This document shows positions 51,965 through 63,193 of a stretch of DNA of 64,000 bases, piece by piece. The notes beneath the pieces were generated by a model that was not told where the DNA came from, made no database searches, and was given only the letters and a program-made list of their open reading frames with translations. Source of the stretch: Metallosphaera sedula DSM 5348 (GTDB lineage: Archaea; Thermoproteota; Thermoprotei_A; Sulfolobales; Sulfolobaceae); the NCBI RefSeq assembly GCF_000016605.1, contig NC_009440.1, positions 930,001-994,000 on the forward strand, given 5' to 3'. The translations under genes were made by a program, and so were the position numbers. The stretch's first letter is position 1. Every line of letters starts with the position of its first letter.

Positions 51965-52426
51965 TTATATCCTCTTTATGAACTCGTAGTGTATCTCCCT
52001 GAAACCTCGCTTCCTGTAGAAGGACTCGGCAATGATGTTCTTTGCGGGGAATCTAGCCATTATGGATCTCGCACCTTTCTTGGATAGCTCTGATATCACG
52101 AAGTCCACCAGTTTCTCACCTACCCCTTCCCTCCTGTATCCAGGCATCACGTATATCTCCTCTATGACTGCCATCTTCTCTGGAATGTAGTATTCCCTTC
52201 TCTCTAGCCTGACCCTCACAGCCCCTATTACTTTCCCTCCATCCTCTGCTACGGCCACGAGACTATCCTCACTCTTCAGGTCCTCGACAAGGCTCCTCTT
52301 CAATCTCTCACTGATCTCATCGTGGACTTGAAGGAGTGGGTCAAACTCTGAGTTCAGGGTGTACATTCGCTCGAACATGTCAGCAACGCTGTCAATGTCC
52401 TTGGGTTCAGCTTTCCTAATCAACAT
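51965..52426 (-). CDS. GNAT-family N-acetyltransferase
   Basis: 153 residues in the GNAT fold: an N-terminal [16 protein letters not shown], the acetyl-CoA binding motif [20 protein letters not shown] (RRxGxG) and a C-terminal [13 protein letters not shown]. The substrate could be a protein amino group or a small molecule. Its start overlaps the end of the malic enzyme gene by 11 bases, so the two are co-translated, an arrangement compatible with acetylation control of the metabolic enzyme, though this is inference. Confidence 0.85.
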
Positions 52427-53684
52427 TCTGGATCGCCCTTATCTTATTCCTGGTCTGCTCTATCTTAGTTTTGGCCATCAGTCTAAACTCCTCCCTACTT
52501 AGCCTTACCCTGGCGTATCCCCTTTCCACCGCCTTTTCCGCAACTGCAGAGGCCAACTCGTAATAGGCGTCCCATTCATCCATCCTGGGGATAATGTAGG
52601 TGGGCGATATACCCTTCCTCTCGGCGAATCTCGCTAAGGCCTCCGCTCCCGCTATGACCATGGCATCATCAACCTTGGAGGACCTACTGTCCAGGACTCC
52701 CCTGAAAACCCCAGGGAAAATGAGCGAGTTGTTCACCTGGTTAGGGAAGTCGCTTCTGCCCGTGGCCACCACCTTGGCTCCGGCGTCTATCGCGTCCGAA
52801 GGATAGATCTCAGGGACGGGATTGGCCAAGGCAAAGACAATGGGGTCCTTCATGAGGCTAATCCATCTCTTAGGAATGGTGTTCGGACCTGGCATAGAGG
52901 CAGCAATTAGAATATCTGCTCCCTTGAATGCCTCATCCAACGTGGTAATGTTGAACCCGTTAGTCGTGACCGCAATTTCATACTTCCATTTATGACTGAA
53001 CATCATTGCGTCCAGATCCCTCCTCTCAGCGTGAAGCACGCCTTCCCTATCAACCACTATCATCCTCTTGGGGTCGAAACCATATGCCTTGAGGAGTCTC
53101 ACGGTAGCAATGTTAGCTGCACCGGCTCCAAATATCACTATCTTGCTGTCCAGTCCCTTTCCTGCGACTTTCATGGCGTTTATGAGGGCAGCAAGTACAG
53201 CTCCAGCGGTTCCCTGTTGATCGTCATGCCACACTGGGATGTTCATCCTTTCCTGAAGTTTTTCAAGGATGTAGAAACACTTGGGACTCTCTACGTCCTC
53301 CAGGTTTATTCCACCGAAAGACGGTTCTAGAGCAGAAACTACGTTTATGATGGTGTCAGGATCCCTCACAGCCAGAGGCAAGGGAATAGCGTCTACGCCT
53401 CCCAGGTACTTGAAGAGAAGTGCCTTTCCCTCCATCACGGGAAGAGATGCCTCTGGGCCAACGTTACCTAGACCCAAAACCCTGGTACCATCCGTGATAA
53501 TAGCTACGTTATTCCACCTACTTGTTAATTGGAAACTCTTGTCCTTGTCCTTAGAAATCTCCTTGACTACCTCAGCAACTCCAGGGGTATATATCACCGA
53601 GAAGTCGTCGTAACTGGAGATGGGAACCTTGGGCATCACCTCAATCTTTCCCTGGTACTTGAGGGATATCTCTACAGGTTTCAT
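52416..53684 (-). CDS. NAD(P)-dependent malic enzyme
   Basis: 422 residues. Malic-enzyme signatures are [19 protein letters not shown] (metal and substrate site), [18 protein letters not shown] and the nucleotide fold [16 protein letters not shown]. It converts malate to pyruvate + CO2 with reduction of NAD(P). Length is typical of short archaeal/bacterial malic enzymes without phosphotransacetylase fusion. With malate synthase at 38446 and the aldolase cluster at 55679-57087, it links C4 acids to pyruvate. First gene of a two-gene unit with the GNAT gene. Confidence 0.92.
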
Positions 53685-54003: not shown

Positions 54004-55338
54004 TTAGGCGACCTCGGTTTTCACTGTTTCCTTGGCAAAATATATGGTGATCGCAGTGAGAATGGCAGTAGCTATCCCGAAGTCGATTATATACGGTAAT
54101 GATACTACTATCCCTTTTCCACCTATGAGTAAGGGAATCACTAAAACGGACACTAGTCCCAATACCAGACTTCCCAATTGATATGCAATTCCGGATCCAG
54201 AATACCTGTACTTCGTTGGAAATAGCTCTGAAAATAGAGCCGGCGTTACCCCATCTCCCAACTTATACAGCGCATTTATCAGGACAAGTCCAGCAACAAT
54301 TAGCGGATAACTCAGAGTTCCTACCATGAGGTAGAAAGGATAAAGGAAAATTGCCACCAATACTGAGGAAATTATCATTGTAGTTTTCCTACCTATCTTG
54401 TCTCCCAATAGGGAACCTAGGATAGTTGCAAATATTCCTCCACCCGCTGCGTAGGATACCGCAAGGGACAGAGACGCAGCAGGAATGGCATGTGTTTTGG
54501 CCACCACGAAGTCAAGGATGTAAGGTCCGCTCACAAATAGCCCAGGAGCACCCACAATAAAGAATGCCGTAGGTAGGAGTAGGAGAATTAGTTTCCACTT
54601 TTCTTTGAGTGCCGTCAAGATCGGTTGCTTTTCCACTTGATTTCTTTGTTTCAATTCTTGAAATAGTGGTGATTCCATGATTTTTAATCTTATAACTATT
54701 GCAAGGACTAGGATAGCTAGACCTATCGCGAATGGTATCCTCCACGCGAAGTTTAACAGCTCTGTTTTGTTGAAGATTGAAGCCACAGTAGTAAAGGCAA
54801 GGGATGCCAGGAGAACACCTATATTTACTCCGTTCTGTATCCATCCTGTAAGGAACGCCCTGTGCCTTGAGTGAGATAGGAATTCAATGGAAAATGAGGA
54901 GGCCCCAGCCCACTCCCCACCCAGACCAATTCCCTGTATCATCCTGAAAAGGACGAGCATGGAAACAGCTAAGGAAGTACCAATCACTTTGGATTCAGGT
55001 AGCACCGCAATGCCTCCCACACCTAGTGCGGTAAGCCCAAGTGTCCATACCAGCATGTCTCTTCTACCTATTTTATCTCCAAAATGTCCAAAAATGAACG
55101 CTCCCACTGGTCTAGTAATGTAGGTAATACCAAAAGTGATTAGGGTTAAACTGGCCTTGAGTGCGGCGCTAAGTCCAGTGAAGAATATGGATGGCCACAC
55201 TAACGATGCAGCTGTGGAAACTATGAAAAGGTCGTAGTAATCTATTACCGTACCCAGAGAGCTAGCTAGAATTACCTTACCTATTATTCCCTTATCATCT
55301 CCCATTGATATATCAACTATATCAAGATGAACTGTCAA
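54004..55338 (-). CDS. MFS transporter, metabolite:H+ symporter (MHS) type
   Basis: 444 residues, twelve helices. The start region SSLGTVIDYYDLFIVSTAASLVWP and the loop GHFGDKIGRRDMLVW are characteristic of the MHS group (citrate, proline/betaine, shikimate, aromatic acid symporters), and GLGGEWAGA is the group's helix-4 motif. It likely imports an organic acid with protons. Divergent from the catabolic operon starting at 55679, sharing a 340-base control region, so it may supply that pathway's substrate. Confidence 0.87.
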   Translation of the reverse strand: MTVHLDIVDISMGDDKGIIGKVILASSLGTVIDYYDLFIVSTAASLVWPSIFFTGLSAALKASLTLITFGITYITRPVGAFIFGHFGDKIGRRDMLVWTLGLTALGVGGIAVLPESKVIGTSLAVSMLVLFRMIQGIGLGGEWAGASSFSIEFLSHSRHRAFLTGWIQNGVNIGVLLASLAFTTVASIFNKTELLNFAWRIPFAIGLAILVLAIVIRLKIMESPLFQELKQRNQVEKQPILTALKEKWKLILLLLPTAFFIVGAPGLFVSGPYILDFVVAKTHAIPAASLSLAVSYAAGGGIFATILGSLLGDKIGRKTTMIISSVLVAIFLYPFYLMVGTLSYPLIVAGLVLINALYKLGDGVTPALFSELFPTKYRYSGSGIAYQLGSLVLGLVSVLVIPLLIGGKGIVVSLPYIIDFGIATAILTAITIYFAKETVKTEVA

Positions 55339-55678
55339 TTATATATTATTTATGGTATCAAACAACTTAGTTAATTCTTAGTTTTTATGCCTTGCAGAAT
55401 CCATCACTGCTTTATTTGGTGAACAGAATTGTTCATCACTAATGCTCAACAACTCTGCTTAACTATTTGGGTTAGGTTCGGACCACCACTCCTAAATGTG
55501 AGAAATTGATTACGTGCATTAGGAACTTGATGTTGCAAAAGCGGATACAGTGATGACAGCGAGCGCAAATTATAAAGTCTAAATGCTATATGAATATTTG
55601 CAATGATCGAATTTCATACACCTAGGAAAACTAGTCTAAGTTTTCTAAAAAACGATACAACCATAAGAGGTGGAGGAA
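55339..55678. other. Divergent control region between MHS transporter and catabolic operon
   Basis: Holds both promoters. Purine-rich AGAGGTGGAGGAA directly before ATG 55679 provides a Shine-Dalgarno, unusual here, where most genes look leaderless. No coding frame supported. Confidence 0.55.
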
Positions 55679-56398
55679 ATGGGTAGGAAACTTCTAGTCA
55701 TAGGGGCGCATTTGGGAGATATGGTATGGAGAGCCTCTGGAACTGTGGCCAAATATATGAAGCAAGGGAATGAGGTCAGCTTGGTAGCTCTCACCTTCGG
55801 CGAAAGGGGGGAGTCTGGGGGCGCATGGAAGGCGGGAGCCAAGACCGTAGAAGAAGTAAAGGCAATAAGGAAGAAGGAGGCTGAGTGCGTGAAAGAATCC
55901 CTTGGAAGTCCAGTAATGGAGTTTATGGATTGGGGAGATCACCCTCTGATATTCAATGAGGAGAGGCTTATCACCATTGCCAAACTGATAAGAAAGTATT
56001 CCCCAGACATACTCATAACCCATGGGCCTGACGACAAAGTTAGACCTGATCACGTTAACACAGCAGAGGCTGTACTCAACGCCGTGAGATTAGCTGCAAT
56101 AGACGGTCTGAAGCTCGAGTATCCTCCGGTCCCTGAGCCAAGGATATACGGTTTCGATCCTCATGTGGCTGATCAAGTGGGGTTCTATCCTCACGTCTAC
56201 ATCAACATTACCGACGTTTATGACAAAAAGGTGAAGGCCATGAATTGTCTTCAGTCCCAAAAGAACGAGATTGAATATTACCAGCTCAGGGATCAGTTAA
56301 GGGGATTACAGACGAGGAGGTTCGGAAGATCCTCATATTTCAAGTATGCAGAGGCCTTCTACATGTATAATCCAGTGATTGGAGAGGACTTTCCGTGA
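55679..56398 (+). CDS. PIG-L/LmbE-fold protein, 4-oxalomesaconate hydratase (GalB)-like
   Basis: 239 residues. The PIG-L fold begins LLVIGAHLGDMVWRASGTVA: the usual AHPDD is AHLGD, so the first Asp (catalytic base of deacetylases) is Gly13 while metal ligands His11 and Asp14 stay. The AH..D.VWRA..A and FGERGES motifs resemble the PIG-L hydratase GalB of gallate degradation more than sugar deacetylases. ITHGPDD and RPDHVNTAEAV supply further ligands. GalB hydrates 4-oxalomesaconate to 4-carboxy-4-hydroxy-2-oxoadipate, precisely the substrate of the aldolase type encoded next. ATG 55679 is chosen over GTG 55670 because of the ribosome-binding site. It overlaps the next gene by 4 bases. Confidence 0.78.
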   Translation: MGRKLLVIGAHLGDMVWRASGTVAKYMKQGNEVSLVALTFGERGESGGAWKAGAKTVEEVKAIRKKEAECVKESLGSPVMEFMDWGDHPLIFNEERLITIAKLIRKYSPDILITHGPDDKVRPDHVNTAEAVLNAVRLAAIDGLKLEYPPVPEPRIYGFDPHVADQVGFYPHVYINITDVYDKKVKAMNCLQSQKNEIEYYQLRDQLRGLQTRRFGRSSYFKYAEAFYMYNPVIGEDFP

Positions 56399-57087
56399 AA
56401 CCTGTCATTGTTAGGGAAATTCCTAGATCTGAGAAGGATAAGGAAAGGATAGCGGAGCTCCTAAGATATGGGGTTGCGACGATATCGGAGTCTCAGGACA
56501 AGTTGGGCTTACTCTCTCCCGATATTAGACCTATACAACCTGGGCTCAAGGCCGCTGGAACAGCGATTACTGTGAGATGTGCTGATGGAGACAACCTTAT
56601 GTTGCACGCTGCACTTGAGGTGGCTAGACCTGGGGACGTGATAGTCCTCACAACCATAAGTGGAGGATCGAGGAATGGTATGTTTGGTGAGTTGTTGGCC
56701 AATGCCTTCATCACTAGGGGGGTCTCTGCACTGATAACTGACTCAGGGGTTAGGGACGTGGCAAGACTTAGGGAAATGAAGTATCCCGTTTGGTCCAGGT
56801 ATATCACGGCAGTGGGAACTTCGAAGAACACTCCAGGTTGGGTTAACGTGCCAATTGTCATTGGTGGGGTTAACGTAAATCCCGGAGATTTTATCCTTGC
56901 AGATGACGATGGTGTGGTTGTAGTCAGAAGGGAAGAAATAGACGTGGTATTAGAGAATGCATCTAAGAGAGAATCCAAGGAAGAAGTAACAAGGAAGAGG
57001 ATACTTAATGGAGAACTAACCGTGGATATATACGGCTTTAAGAAAGTCTTAGCCGATCTAGGAGTTAACTACGTGGATAGGCTGTGA
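56395..57087 (+). CDS. RraA-family aldolase, 4-carboxy-4-hydroxy-2-oxoadipate/HMG aldolase-like
   Basis: 230 residues from GTG 56395. The RraA/aldolase core has GTAITVRC, GDVIVLTTISGG, GELLANAFITRGVSALITD followed by SGVRD (pyruvate/metal site) and GDFILADDDGVVVV, then a C-terminal arm ending LADLGVNYVD as in class II CHA/HMG aldolases. Expected reaction: 4-carboxy-4-hydroxy-2-oxoadipate to pyruvate + oxaloacetate. Translational coupling with a GalB-like hydratase supports this against the alternative RNase E regulator-like role. Confidence 0.85.
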   Translation: MKPVIVREIPRSEKDKERIAELLRYGVATISESQDKLGLLSPDIRPIQPGLKAAGTAITVRCADGDNLMLHAALEVARPGDVIVLTTISGGSRNGMFGELLANAFITRGVSALITDSGVRDVARLREMKYPVWSRYITAVGTSKNTPGWVNVPIVIGGVNVNPGDFILADDDGVVVVRREEIDVVLENASKRESKEEVTRKRILNGELTVDIYGFKKVLADLGVNYVDRL

Positions 57088-57347
57088 CCTCATGACATGC
57101 TATTACCAAGGATGATGAGCTATTGCCTTACAGCTAACGAGGGCTTTGAGCGTTATAGTGTGATTAATCTAACACGAAAGAGATTCTTAGTAACATAATA
57201 TTTGCTCTTATTGCCCATGAAAGAGACGTGTCCGTTTAATAAATAACCATTATTTTTCATTTAATCTATTATAATAACCTTATCATTGAGTTATAACTTC
57301 CTATGAAAGGTTATTAACTTGTTAGTTCCATTTCACCACGTGATATA

Positions 57348-58247
57348 ATGGTTTCAGTTGAAGAGGCAAAGGAGCTTATCCGTGGAGGATATGATATACA
57401 TCTACACTCCGCCCCAGATCTCCTTCCAAGGAAGGCTAATGATATAGAATTTGCTAGAATGGCCAAGGAGGCGGGCATGGCGGGGTTTGTCCTTAAGTCC
57501 CACTACATGCCCACAGCGGAACGGGCGTCACTAGTCAGATATGTTGTGGAAGGTTTCAAGGCCTATGGTGGTCTTGTTCTGAACTGGGGAGTAGGTGGAA
57601 TAAATCCTGTTGCGGTTGAAGTAAGCGCCAAGTCAGGCGCAAAGGTCGTCTGGATGCCTACCATAGACTCAATCAACGAAAAGGGAAGATGGACTGATGT
57701 TAACGATTGGTCCAAGGCCCCCTACTGGGCTAAACTGAGCAAGGAACTGAAGTCCCTAAACAATGCAACTCCCATAGTGATCTGGAAAGGCCAAGAGCTT
57801 AAGGAGGAAGTATACGACGTTCTGGATATCATTAAGAAGTATAACATGGTTCTCGCTACTGGTCACATTAGTAAGGAGGACGGTCTAAGGTTCATCCCTC
57901 TTGCCTCTCAGTACGGAGTGAGGAGAATAGTTGTGACCCATCCTGAATTTCCTTCTACCTCTTACAGGGTGGAGGAGCAAGTTAAGCTCCTGGACTATAA
58001 CCCAGTCTTTGAAAGGTGCTTCACCACTCCCTTTTCCAGGAAAACGACATGGGACGTCGTGATAAGGGGAATAAGGGAGACGGGAATAGAAAACAACGTA
58101 TTGTCCACCGATCTAGGTCAGCCCACCGCACCCTATCCTGTGGAGGGAATGATAATGTTTGCCCAAAAGCTACTGGAAGCTGGCTTTTCAGGGGATGAAA
58201 TACATAGGATGATAGCGGACAATCCTAGAAAACTATTGGAGGAGTGA
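57348..58247 (+). CDS. Metal-dependent hydrolase-like protein (DUF6282-like)
   Basis: 299 residues, likely TIM-barrel amidohydrolase/PHP-like fold. The start has GYDIHLHSAPDLLPRK (HxH metal motif), then VLKSHYMPT, VVWMPTIDS, LATGHISKED and VVTHPEFPS, supplying further His ligands. Function not established; it may hydrolyse a lactone or amide in the surrounding pathway. It has its own promoter region (57088-57347) and is followed after 15 bases by the dehydrogenase gene. Confidence 0.7.
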   Translation: MVSVEEAKELIRGGYDIHLHSAPDLLPRKANDIEFARMAKEAGMAGFVLKSHYMPTAERASLVRYVVEGFKAYGGLVLNWGVGGINPVAVEVSAKSGAKVVWMPTIDSINEKGRWTDVNDWSKAPYWAKLSKELKSLNNATPIVIWKGQELKEEVYDVLDIIKKYNMVLATGHISKEDGLRFIPLASQYGVRRIVVTHPEFPSTSYRVEEQVKLLDYNPVFERCFTTPFSRKTTWDVVIRGIRETGIENNVLSTDLGQPTAPYPVEGMIMFAQKLLEAGFSGDEIHRMIADNPRKLLEE

Positions 58248-58262
58248 TGTGGGGTCGACATC

Positions 58263-59237
58263 ATGAAACCAGTTGTTGGTATAGATTCCTCGGTTATAGT
58301 TGAGGAACTAGACCAGGAAAAGGTTAGGGAGTTAAATTCGTTAGCAGAAATTGTATACTTCAATCCATACGCTCCAGAGGATCAGATAGTCTCCCTTCTA
58401 AGGGACGCTATTGCCATAGTTGACCGAAAGGCTAAGATATCGTCGAAGATAATTAGGGAACTTAGAAACTTGAAACTCATAGCTAGGACTGGTGCAGGAG
58501 TTGATGAAACTAGGGTTGACCTCAAGGCAGCTAAGGAAAGGGATATCATCATTACCTATAACCCTGGAGGAAATTCGGTCGCCGTCGCTGAACTTACTAT
58601 TATGCTGGCAATTGCACTTTATAGGAAAGTAATTCCACTTGCCTTGTCTGTGAAAGCAGGAAAGTGGAGTGAGCTTAAGCCTAAGGACACCATGGGACAT
58701 GAATTGGAGGGAAAGGCCTGGGGAATCCTGGGGTTTGGGAACATAGGGAAAAGGGTTGCACAACTTGTCACTTCACTCAACTGCAAGGTACTGGGATATG
58801 ATCCATACGTGTCATCGGAGATAATGGAGAAACACGGGGTCAAGTCACTCTCACTGGAGGAACTTCTATCAAAGTCAGATATAATCTCAATCCATGTACC
58901 ATTAACTGAATCCACCAGGCATCTTATCAACAGCGAAAGATTGAAAACCATGAAAAAGACCGCCATCCTAATAAACGTTAGTAGAGGGGGAATAATTGAC
59001 GATAAGGCATTATATGAGTCCCTCAGGAATGGGGAAATAGCGGGGGCAGCCCTCGATACGCCTGAGGAGGAGCCAGTTAAAGTAGACAATCCATTGCTCT
59101 CCCTAGATAACGTGATTATTACTCCCCATATTGGAGGTTCAACCTTTGAGGCTTCAATAAAGAACGCTAATTCTGCAGTAGAAGAAGTTATTAGGTTCTT
59201 AAAGGGACTGCCTCCCCTGGTCCCCTTTAGGTATTAG
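58263..59237 (+). CDS. D-2-hydroxyacid dehydrogenase (SerA/GyaR-like)
   Basis: 324 residues. The NAD-binding motif WGILGFGNIGKRVAQ is followed by LNVSRGGIIDDKAL (catalytic Arg vicinity in the preceding strand), a Glu-containing DTPEEEPV and catalytic His in ITPHIGGSTFEA. There is no ACT domain, so it is a short 3-phosphoglycerate dehydrogenase/hydroxypyruvate-reductase type. In this locus it may interconvert a 2-oxo/2-hydroxy acid intermediate. Convergent with the GntR gene with one base between stop codons. Confidence 0.88.
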   Translation: MKPVVGIDSSVIVEELDQEKVRELNSLAEIVYFNPYAPEDQIVSLLRDAIAIVDRKAKISSKIIRELRNLKLIARTGAGVDETRVDLKAAKERDIIITYNPGGNSVAVAELTIMLAIALYRKVIPLALSVKAGKWSELKPKDTMGHELEGKAWGILGFGNIGKRVAQLVTSLNCKVLGYDPYVSSEIMEKHGVKSLSLEELLSKSDIISIHVPLTESTRHLINSERLKTMKKTAILINVSRGGIIDDKALYESLRNGEIAGAALDTPEEEPVKVDNPLLSLDNVIITPHIGGSTFEASIKNANSAVEEVIRFLKGLPPLVPFRY

Positions 59238-59238
59238 C

Positions 59239-59910
59239 TCACGTAGCAACTAGATCTAAAAGTTCCTTATTATTTTGGATCAATTCCCTTACATTTTTGA
59301 CGTGAGTCCTTGCCCACAGCTCAGCCTCGTTCTCGTCATGGTTTTTCAATGCCTGGAAAATCCTGAAGTGTTCGTTCCATGAAACTTCGGCTCTCCCTGG
59401 TACCATTACAGTCCTAAATTGGTATCTAATCATCTTTAGCTTTAGAGTTGACAAGAGGAGCTGGGCCGTGGTGTTTCCAGAGGCTTCGTAAATTATGCTA
59501 TGAAACCTTTCATTTAATTGCGAGTACCTCAAGAATTCCCTGTTTTCTAAGGCAGTCTTCATCTCCATCAGGGTTGACTCAAGTCTCTGGAGGCTCTCCT
59601 CAGATATCCTGGTGGCAGCCTTTCTTGCCAGGAATCCCTCAATTACTTCTCTCACCTCAAGTATTTCCACAGCCTCCTTTAGGTCAATGAACGACACAAT
59701 AACACCGCTGGTAGTTCTCTTAACTATTCCGTCATTTTCTAGCCTCGTGAGGGCGAGTCTAATGGTGTTCCTACTTGAACCGTATTCCTTGGCGAGGGCG
59801 TCCTCTACTAGTCTTTGGCCAGGCAAGAATTTCCCTCTCTGAATATCAGTTTTCAACCTTTCATAGATGTAATCGCTTTTCTTTCCTCTTGTCTGTGTCA
59901 TTTGTTCCAT
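59239..59910 (-). CDS. GntR-family transcriptional regulator (FCD/FadR type)
   Basis: 223 residues. The N-terminal winged helix is clear: YIYERLKTDIQRGKFLPGQ, then LVEDALAKEYGSSRNTIRLA and TTSGVIV. The all-helical FCD ligand domain has EVREVIEGFLARKAA, LNERFHSIIYEAS and SWNEHFRIFQALKNHD, with the Asp/His metal-binding set. FCD regulators sense organic acids, so this is the likely local regulator of the 54004-59237 catabolic genes. GntR factors are uncommon in archaea, hinting at acquisition from bacteria. Confidence 0.9.
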   Translation of the reverse strand: MEQMTQTRGKKSDYIYERLKTDIQRGKFLPGQRLVEDALAKEYGSSRNTIRLALTRLENDGIVKRTTSGVIVSFIDLKEAVEILEVREVIEGFLARKAATRISEESLQRLESTLMEMKTALENREFLRYSQLNERFHSIIYEASGNTTAQLLLSTLKLKMIRYQFRTVMVPGRAEVSWNEHFRIFQALKNHDENEAELWARTHVKNVRELIQNNKELLDLVAT

Positions 59911-62036: not shown

Positions 62037-62867
62037 CTATTTCCTCGAGGTGATGGTCAAATAAATTCCTATCAAGGTAATGATGGAACCAATTGCCTCC
62101 CCAGCTGAGGGTATCACGCCCAATGTAAGGAAGCTAAGGATATACGCTGCAATGGGGACCAGAAGGGAACCCGCTGAGGCCCTAATGCTTCCCATTTCCT
62201 TCAGGGCGTTAAACCAGAGGATATAACCTAGCGCTTGCCCCAGTATCCCTAACAAGATCAAGAGAACCAGTGCTAGGGGCGTAAAGGTAAAGTAGTAGTC
62301 CAGCGGGGTCATGGCCAAGGTCACTGGAAGTGAGACCAAGCTCATGAAGGCATTAAGTTTTGGAATGCTCTCACCCTTGAGATTTCTTGAGTAGTACACA
62401 GTCCCTATGGCCCAGCTTATCCCTCCTGCAAGCGCAATCAGAATTCCTAGGTCGAGGCTCGCCTAAGTTATGGAGAAGGCTAGCCCCAAGATACCTAGGA
62501 GAATTCCGATTACCGACCTAGTGGAGATGCTGGTTCCCAGAATTCTCTCAAAAATAATCACGAAAATGGGCTGAGTGTAGATCATTAGTGCTGCTAAACC
62601 TGGGTTTGAAGATATGGATGTTCCCACGTTGAGGCATAACATAAAGATAGTGAAATTGAAGATCGCGGTAACTAGTTGTTTCCTTCCCACTGAAATCTTG
62701 AAGCCTGAGACGATCAAAAAGAAAAGTGCTCCAATCGCGAATCTGACCCAAGTAATTATTATGGGGGAGACATCCGCTGAAACTATCTTGGTTAAGGGAT
62801 ACGTCAATCCCCACACAATGGCCAGGGGGCCTAACCATCTTAAACCCTTGAGAGAGGCGTTGGACAC
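62037..62867 (-). pseudogene. EamA/DMT-family transporter interrupted by one in-frame TAG
   Basis: Read through, this is a 276-codon drug/metabolite transporter with ten helices in two EamA halves: [16 protein letters not shown] at the start and [19 protein letters not shown] in the second half. After [11 protein letters not shown] a TAG (62463-62465 on the plus coordinates) stops translation, but the same frame continues [20 protein letters not shown] without a gap. A TGG, CAG, AAG or similar codon changed to TAG would explain it; sequencing error is also possible. The downstream maleylacetate-reductase-like gene starts 2 bases later, so polarity is possible. Confidence 0.85.
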
Positions 62868-63193
62868 AGAGATATTACATGTTTCTTTAAGTTTAAATAG
62901 TTAATTATTTTTCTTTTTAGGACTTGGTTAGTGTCTCCTGATCTTGTACAATAACTTGGACCATACAAGTATCCTTGCTTTCTAGATAGAGGATTAACAG
63001 TAACATGGTGTAGCTCTATCACTTCAATTTTACCCTTCTAATAGCACCTTATCTAAGGTCATTCATGTTTAGCTATCTTTACCCTCTCATCGAAAACTCG
63101 TATGTACAAGGAATAACCCATGTTGATCAAATCCCAAAGAAAGTTAATATTTAGATGGTTAAGCTTAATACGTATTTTCCTAGATTATAGGAT
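62868..63193. other. Divergent intergenic region
   Basis: Carries the EamA promoter at left and the molybdenum hydroxylase promoter at right (A+T runs near 63148-63158). No supportable gene. Confidence 0.45.

Follow-up and report, generated by a model that had tools for sequence, protein, structure and literature searches.

The window analysed here comprises bases 930001-994000 (64,000 nucleotides) of the single 2,191,517-bp contig of Metallosphaera sedula DSM 5348, and our work concerns a locus of six genes at its positions 54004-59910 that is built around a putative 4-oxalomesaconate (OMA) hydratase and the aldolase encoded next to it. Strong Pfam and NCBIfam scores assign all six genes to families, in agreement with the positions and families given in an initial annotation made from the sequence alone. 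On the forward strand, the gene for a PIG-L fold protein, the GalB-type OMA (KCH) hydratase (55670-56398; PF02585, 2.2e-29), is followed by the gene for an RraA-fold 4-carboxy-4-hydroxy-2-oxoadipate (CHA) aldolase (56395-57087). The two had been described as fused by overlap, but the genes overlap by 4 bp (GTGA) and there is no fusion. After a gap of 260 bp, the forward strand continues with the genes for a DUF6282 protein (57348-58247; PF19799, 2.7e-63) and a D-2-hydroxyacid dehydrogenase (58263-59237; PF02826, 1e-64), and a GntR/FCD transcriptional regulator is encoded on the reverse strand (59239-59910; PF07729, 2.6e-28; PF00392, 1.6e-15). On the other side of the hydratase gene, the reverse strand encodes an MFS transporter of the metabolite/H+ symporter (MHS) type (54004-55338), a relative of shikimate and tricarballylate transporters that matches TIGR00883 (1.1e-79; 268 bits, under the cutoff of 443), the shikimate model PRK09952 (4.6e-55) and TcuC (7e-43). 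The 331 bp between these divergent genes (55339-55669) probably form a regulatory region and contain 7-bp and 6-bp inverted repeats; a search for GntR/FCD operators with the motifs TnGTnnnACnA and TTGT-ACAA gave no match in the locus. The third-position GC content of the six genes (0.41-0.53, vs. 0.56 +/- 0.08 for the open reading frames of at least 200 amino acids in the window) does not mark them as recent strangers.

Three observations agree in linking the PIG-L protein to GalB, as the initial annotation had proposed. First, GalB (PDB 5cgz, 3.6e-40) is its best solved relative by a margin of 87 bits, followed by the LmbE-related structure 2ixd (1.3e-13), and the protein remains under the cutoff of every NCBIfam deacetylase model, BshB included. 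Second, the motifs AHLGD (residues 13-17) and FGERGES (residues 43-49) align with GalB, and according to our motif table AHxxDxVWR and GERGES-type motifs are common to the PIG-L protein and the GalB group only. By alignment, H14, D17 and H128 are the metal ligands, and their GalB counterparts lie in AHSAD and DH. In the HXD1D2 motif of LmbE deacetylases, D1 is the general base and D2 is a metal ligand (PMC4101496). Here, D1 is replaced by a glycine (G16) and the metal ligands are kept, resulting in H-L-G-D as compared to H-S-A-D in GalB and HPDD in more distant PIG-L proteins of the order Sulfolobales. Finally, in a maximum-likelihood tree of 37 proteins the Sulfolobaceae PIG-L proteins group with GalB and GalB-like proteins (support 100/99), and BcZBP, diacetylchitobiose deacetylase and the second PIG-L protein of the M. 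sedula genome fall outside this clade. Since the tree places the protein in the GalB clade, the clustering with deacetylases that would have spoken against the initial proposal is not seen. Judged from these comparisons, the PIG-L protein belongs to the OMA hydratase GalB group; a reading as a deacetylase is rejected by the tree together with the motif.

The case for the aldolase is similar: The protein passes the CHA-aldolase equivalog model NF006731 (274.1 bits, cutoff 179), and among solved structures the CHA aldolase 3noj (9e-62) comes closest. The residues R123, D124, E199, R195 and K147 that have been named for the Pseudomonas putida enzyme (PMC5065237) correspond to R120, D121, E196, R192 and K144 in the alignment with 3noj. 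By the equivalog model and these residues, the RraA-fold protein is assigned as a CHA aldolase with intact diagnostic residues, and the initial designation as a CHA/HMG-type aldolase holds.

How the pair is embedded in related archaea became visible in a sample of 197 genomes of the order and a search of 31 genomes of the family. Five of the 197 genomes, all of them in the family, encode a PIG-L protein of the close form (68-100% identity), and the hydratase/aldolase pair occurs in five of the 31 family genomes. In M. yellowstonensis, the gene of a LigB-family dioxygenase is located directly 3' of the aldolase gene, in two other relatives (G141 and G151) the ligB gene precedes the PIG-L gene, and in the fourth (G032) it lies about 18-19 kb from the pair, beside Rieske genes. 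Each of these four relatives encodes three or four Rieske alpha subunits, and in their LigB proteins the positions that correspond to the presumed metal and acid-base residues of class III enzymes are conserved. For the D-2-hydroxyacid dehydrogenase, the best homologue is encoded within about 14 kb of the pair in all five genomes (48-54% identity in the relatives, vs. 32-36% for the next best homologue), and the dehydrogenase is therefore probably a member of the module. In M. yellowstonensis there are two neighbouring modules, MHS-PIG-L-aldolase-LigB and DUF6282-FCD-permease-thiamine pyrophosphate enzyme-MHS. The M. sedula locus consists of the pair and homologues of the MHS, DUF6282 and FCD proteins of the second module; its MHS transporter is 69% identical to the one of the DUF6282 module and 35% identical to that of the other. 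We infer that in this family two different heads, namely ring cleavage and import via DUF6282, lead into the OMA tail, and that M. sedula possesses only the second.

The initial annotation saw no ring-cleavage dioxygenase, and this is correct for the window; for dioxygenases of the relevant class III type, it extends to the entire genome. The sole LigB homologue of the genome is DODA-like, i. e. it fits the DOPA-dioxygenase model, and is 28% identical to the cluster LigB over part of its length. The number of Rieske alpha subunits (Ring_hydroxyl_A) in the genome is zero, and remnants of LigB, Rieske, GalD, LigI or DUF1932 genes in the window were not revealed by any credible tblastn match. Because the genome has neither the cluster-type LigB nor the Rieske oxygenases that its relatives carry, M. 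sedula appears to hold the lower pathway without the ring-opening head, and an interpretation of the locus as a full aromatic pathway is not supported. The link to gallate/protocatechuate 4,5-cleavage made in the initial annotation is strengthened by the relatives, in which a LigB dioxygenase and Rieske oxygenases accompany the pair. Elsewhere in the genome, outside the window and unlinked to the locus, two dioxygenases of the HpaD equivalog are encoded (918340-919071 and 1717764-1718519).

The DUF6282 protein had been called hydrolase-like. It is a member of the DUF6282 family and is predicted to form an amidohydrolase-type barrel; the linkage of this family to GalB across many phyla had been missed. 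With the AlphaFold2 model, which is of high confidence (pLDDT 92.6), a fold search matched amidohydrolase-type barrels such as the GkaP lactonase (1.6e-7) and renal dipeptidase (1.8e-7), and sequence searches gave no close match, LigI included. The idea that the protein is a clear relative of LigI was rejected, as LigI was not singled out by the profile or the fold search. H20, H173, H198 and D255, which together with H18 are listed as the residues of the barrel, are invariant in 45 aligned proteins, and so are R28, K50, H52, R59 and K232. H18, the first histidine of the HxH motif, is replaced by glutamine in five of the 45 proteins, and four of these are encoded at LigB-bearing loci (L094, L095, L108 and L130).

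Among the best 80 named DUF6282 loci, a GalB-type PIG-L protein is present at 57 and adjacent at 52, and there are RraA aldolases at 58, FCD regulators at 54, DUF1932-type dehydrogenases at 29, VOC dioxygenases at seven and LigB dioxygenases at five of them; LigI was found at none of the 80. DUF6282, GalB, the aldolase and the FCD regulator are thus a widespread bacterial cassette that sometimes adjoins extradiol dioxygenases. In Thermus oshimai, for example, the order is catechol 2,3-dioxygenase (C23O)-GntR-DUF6282-PIG-L-aldolase-NADox, near a 4-hydroxybenzoate monooxygenase. In Clostridia and Spirochaetes, DUF6282 and PIG-L are accompanied by transporter-like genes and an RraA relative, and no oxygenase homologue was found at these loci. 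At GalB loci, GalD is present in 11 out of 13 cases without DUF6282 vs. 1 out of 43 with DUF6282 (Fisher p 6e-9, uncorrected for descent; GalB loci of bacteria were sampled in small number and with a bias towards plasmids). This near-exclusion makes DUF6282 attractive as a plain substitute for GalD, but the samples are linked by descent, and among Actinobacteria whose DUF6282 has no adjoining GalB a PrpF-family protein was present in all seven that were checked, with a separate GalB near it in four; GalD substitution is kept as one option. The near-exclusion favours a GalD-like isomerase, whereas the fold, the link to the dehydrogenase and the genomes that contain both DUF6282 and GalD favour a LigI-like hydrolase of lactones or pyrones, which we rank somewhat ahead. 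We tentatively propose, and at less than even odds, that DUF6282 is a so far unrecognised entry enzyme of the OMA route, a lactone/pyrone hydrolase or OMA isomerase that is an analogue rather than an orthologue of LigI or GalD, and that its coupling to GalB and CHA aldolase spans Archaea, Deinococcota, Bacillota including Clostridia, Actinomycetota, Acidobacteriota, Chloroflexota and Spirochaetota. Such an enzyme would let organisms without ring-cleavage enzymes use compounds of the pathway.

Some of the bacterial loci call for separate comment. In Alphaproteobacteria, proteins annotated as catechol 2,3-dioxygenase, VOC or BphC are encoded between galB and the CHA aldolase gene (L156:8744-9706, L047:8750-9718 and L155:8964-9929), and a tannase gene adjoins in one case; the proteins of L156 and L047 share 58-60% identity with the "catechol 2,3-dioxygenase" of Thermus. 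These VOC proteins are possibly misannotated gallate-type ring-cleavage enzymes. On Rhodococcus plasmids, the "hypothetical protein" encoded two genes past the GalB-CHA aldolase pair is a LigB-family dioxygenase (L026:12387-13280 and L044:12354-13292).

Taken together, we regard it as fairly probable that the locus encodes the lower, post-ring-cleavage half of a pathway of the gallate/protocatechuate-4,5 type, fed by an imported acid via DUF6282 and the dehydrogenase under the control of the GntR/FCD protein. In the absence of Rieske oxygenases and a cluster-type LigB from the genome, import of an acid most likely feeds the route, and the MHS symporter would take up a di- or tricarboxylic acid. 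DUF6282 would most likely act by opening a lactone or a pyrone, for instance 2-pyrone-4,6-dicarboxylate, or by isomerising OMA, and together with the D-2-hydroxyacid dehydrogenase it would bring the imported acid into the OMA pool. As expected from their families, the GalB-type hydratase would convert OMA (2-keto-4-carboxy-hexenedioate or its enol form) to CHA, which the aldolase would cleave to pyruvate and oxaloacetate; the GntR/FCD protein presumably controls the locus. Good support exists for the identities of the hydratase and the aldolase only, and the other steps are deduced from fold, linkage and neighbours.

Several findings weigh against this proposal. The aldolase fails the stricter LigK/PcmE model TIGR02798 (236.9 bits, cutoff 304.5). 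The GalD tautomerase (PrpF family, PF04303) has no match in M. sedula or its four relatives, and genomes with a stand-alone DUF6282 often have GalD and a separate GalB, which is a poor fit to a simple replacement of GalD. In the fold search, LigI (4d8l) ranked only 28th (7.7e-6), below the PTE-like lactonase GkaP and dipeptidases. Moreover, there are only candidate enzymes for a source of OMA in the genome, and OMA is no obvious environmental compound.

Of the other explanations, the one that survives best is that hydratase and aldolase act on another C6-C7 keto-tricarboxylate of non-aromatic origin, so that "oxalomesaconate" is just the name of the family, and that the hydratase receives a 2-oxo acid which the dehydrogenase makes by oxidation of an imported 2-hydroxy acid. 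This would fit the loci of Clostridia and Spirochaetes with transporter-like genes, at which no oxygenase homologue was found, a plasmid on which PIG-L-aldolase occurs together with GalD and a tripartite tricarboxylate transporter and with no dioxygenase in the stretch read, and the MHS transporter itself, which is closest to carboxylate symporter models. However, the RraA proteins in most of the Clostridia are only 32-38% identical to the references, and ring-cleavage genes accompany the pair in the four archaeal relatives; we consider this explanation unlikely, if still worth keeping in mind. Less likely still is a complete gallate/protocatechuate pathway in M. sedula, in which the OMA precursor would come from one of the unlinked HpaD-type dioxygenases or from the DODA-like LigB homologue. 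In favour of this, two proteins score above the cutoff of the HpaD equivalog, one LigB-family protein is present, and in several bacteria VOC-type dioxygenases are encoded between galB and the aldolase gene, in one case beside a tannase; yet the HpaD proteins share only 23-26% identity with the GalB-linked VOC enzymes and are not linked to the locus, HpaD of Sulfolobales has already been tied to the 4-hydroxyphenylacetate hydroxylase HpaH (PMC3512248), and the LigB homologue is the distant, DOPA-dioxygenase-like protein described above. A reading of the PIG-L protein as a common LmbE-like deacetylase or amidase, and of the aldolase as a generic member of the RraA proteins, is highly improbable, since PIG-L family membership and sub-cutoff matches to BshB models are outweighed by the missed deacetylase cutoffs, the GalB clade, the lost general-base aspartate and the overlap with the CHA aldolase gene.

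Two further genes of the window deserve mention. Immediately downstream of the MHS gene, the reverse strand also carries a malic enzyme gene (52416-53684); as it was not found beside the pair in the stretches read from the relatives, it is probably unrelated to the locus. In an EamA-type transporter gene (62037-62870, reverse strand), a single in-frame stop splits the two domains, and each half matches PF00892.

The initial remark that no such pathway has been described in Sulfolobales agrees with the titles and abstracts of the open-licence literature searched, in which we found no description of a gallate/protocatechuate-4,5 lower pathway in this order; DUF6282 was not mentioned in this literature either. 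The class II and III extradiol dioxygenases of Sulfolobales have been treated, and the function of the class III proteins was called unknown (PMC3512248). Aromatic catabolism (benzoate, phthalate) is enriched among the gene families specific to M. yellowstonensis (PMC7325606). With their apparently fuller set of Rieske oxygenases, LigB, GalB and CHA aldolase, the relatives provide a comparison from which a prediction on aromatic catabolism in thermoacidophiles can be derived and tested, and the linkage to GalB gives a function space to DUF6282, which recurs beside GalB in many phyla.

The locus thus represents the end of a known pathway in a form that lacks the head and is joined by a widely shared, uncharacterised partner protein, DUF6282. 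The gallate pathway of P. putida (GalA-GalD-GalB-GalC), in which GalD acts after ring cleavage, ends in pyruvate and oxaloacetate (PMC12314914). The archaeal locus shares with it the GalB-group hydratase, the CHA aldolase, a transporter, a dedicated regulator and the predicted end products, but it lacks a gallate dioxygenase and GalD (PrpF family), has an FCD instead of a LysR regulator and contains DUF6282 and the D-2-hydroxyacid dehydrogenase in addition. With the protocatechuate 4,5-cleavage pathway (LigAB, LigC, LigI, LigJ/GalB, LigK), it would have the last two reactions in common, and LigI has the amidohydrolase-type fold that is predicted for DUF6282; in contrast, the cluster-type LigB is missing from the genome, there is no LigI homologue in the window, and the hydratase belongs to the GalB type and not to that of LigJ. 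The DUF6282-PIG-L-aldolase-GntR cassette on pTHEOS01 of T. oshimai consists of the same set of genes, including one for a homologous regulator (identities of 45% for DUF6282 and 38% for PIG-L), but there it is found with a C23O-type dioxygenase, a 4-hydroxybenzoate monooxygenase, Rieske genes and a DUF1932 oxidoreductase, whereas the MHS symporter and the D-2-hydroxyacid dehydrogenase are on the M. sedula side. The closest counterpart is the cluster of M. yellowstonensis MK1 (PIG-L 76%, aldolase 77%, DUF6282 67%, MHS 69% and FCD 55% identical), which differs in the LigB encoded right after the aldolase, the nearby Rieske oxygenases and the arrangement in two separate modules.

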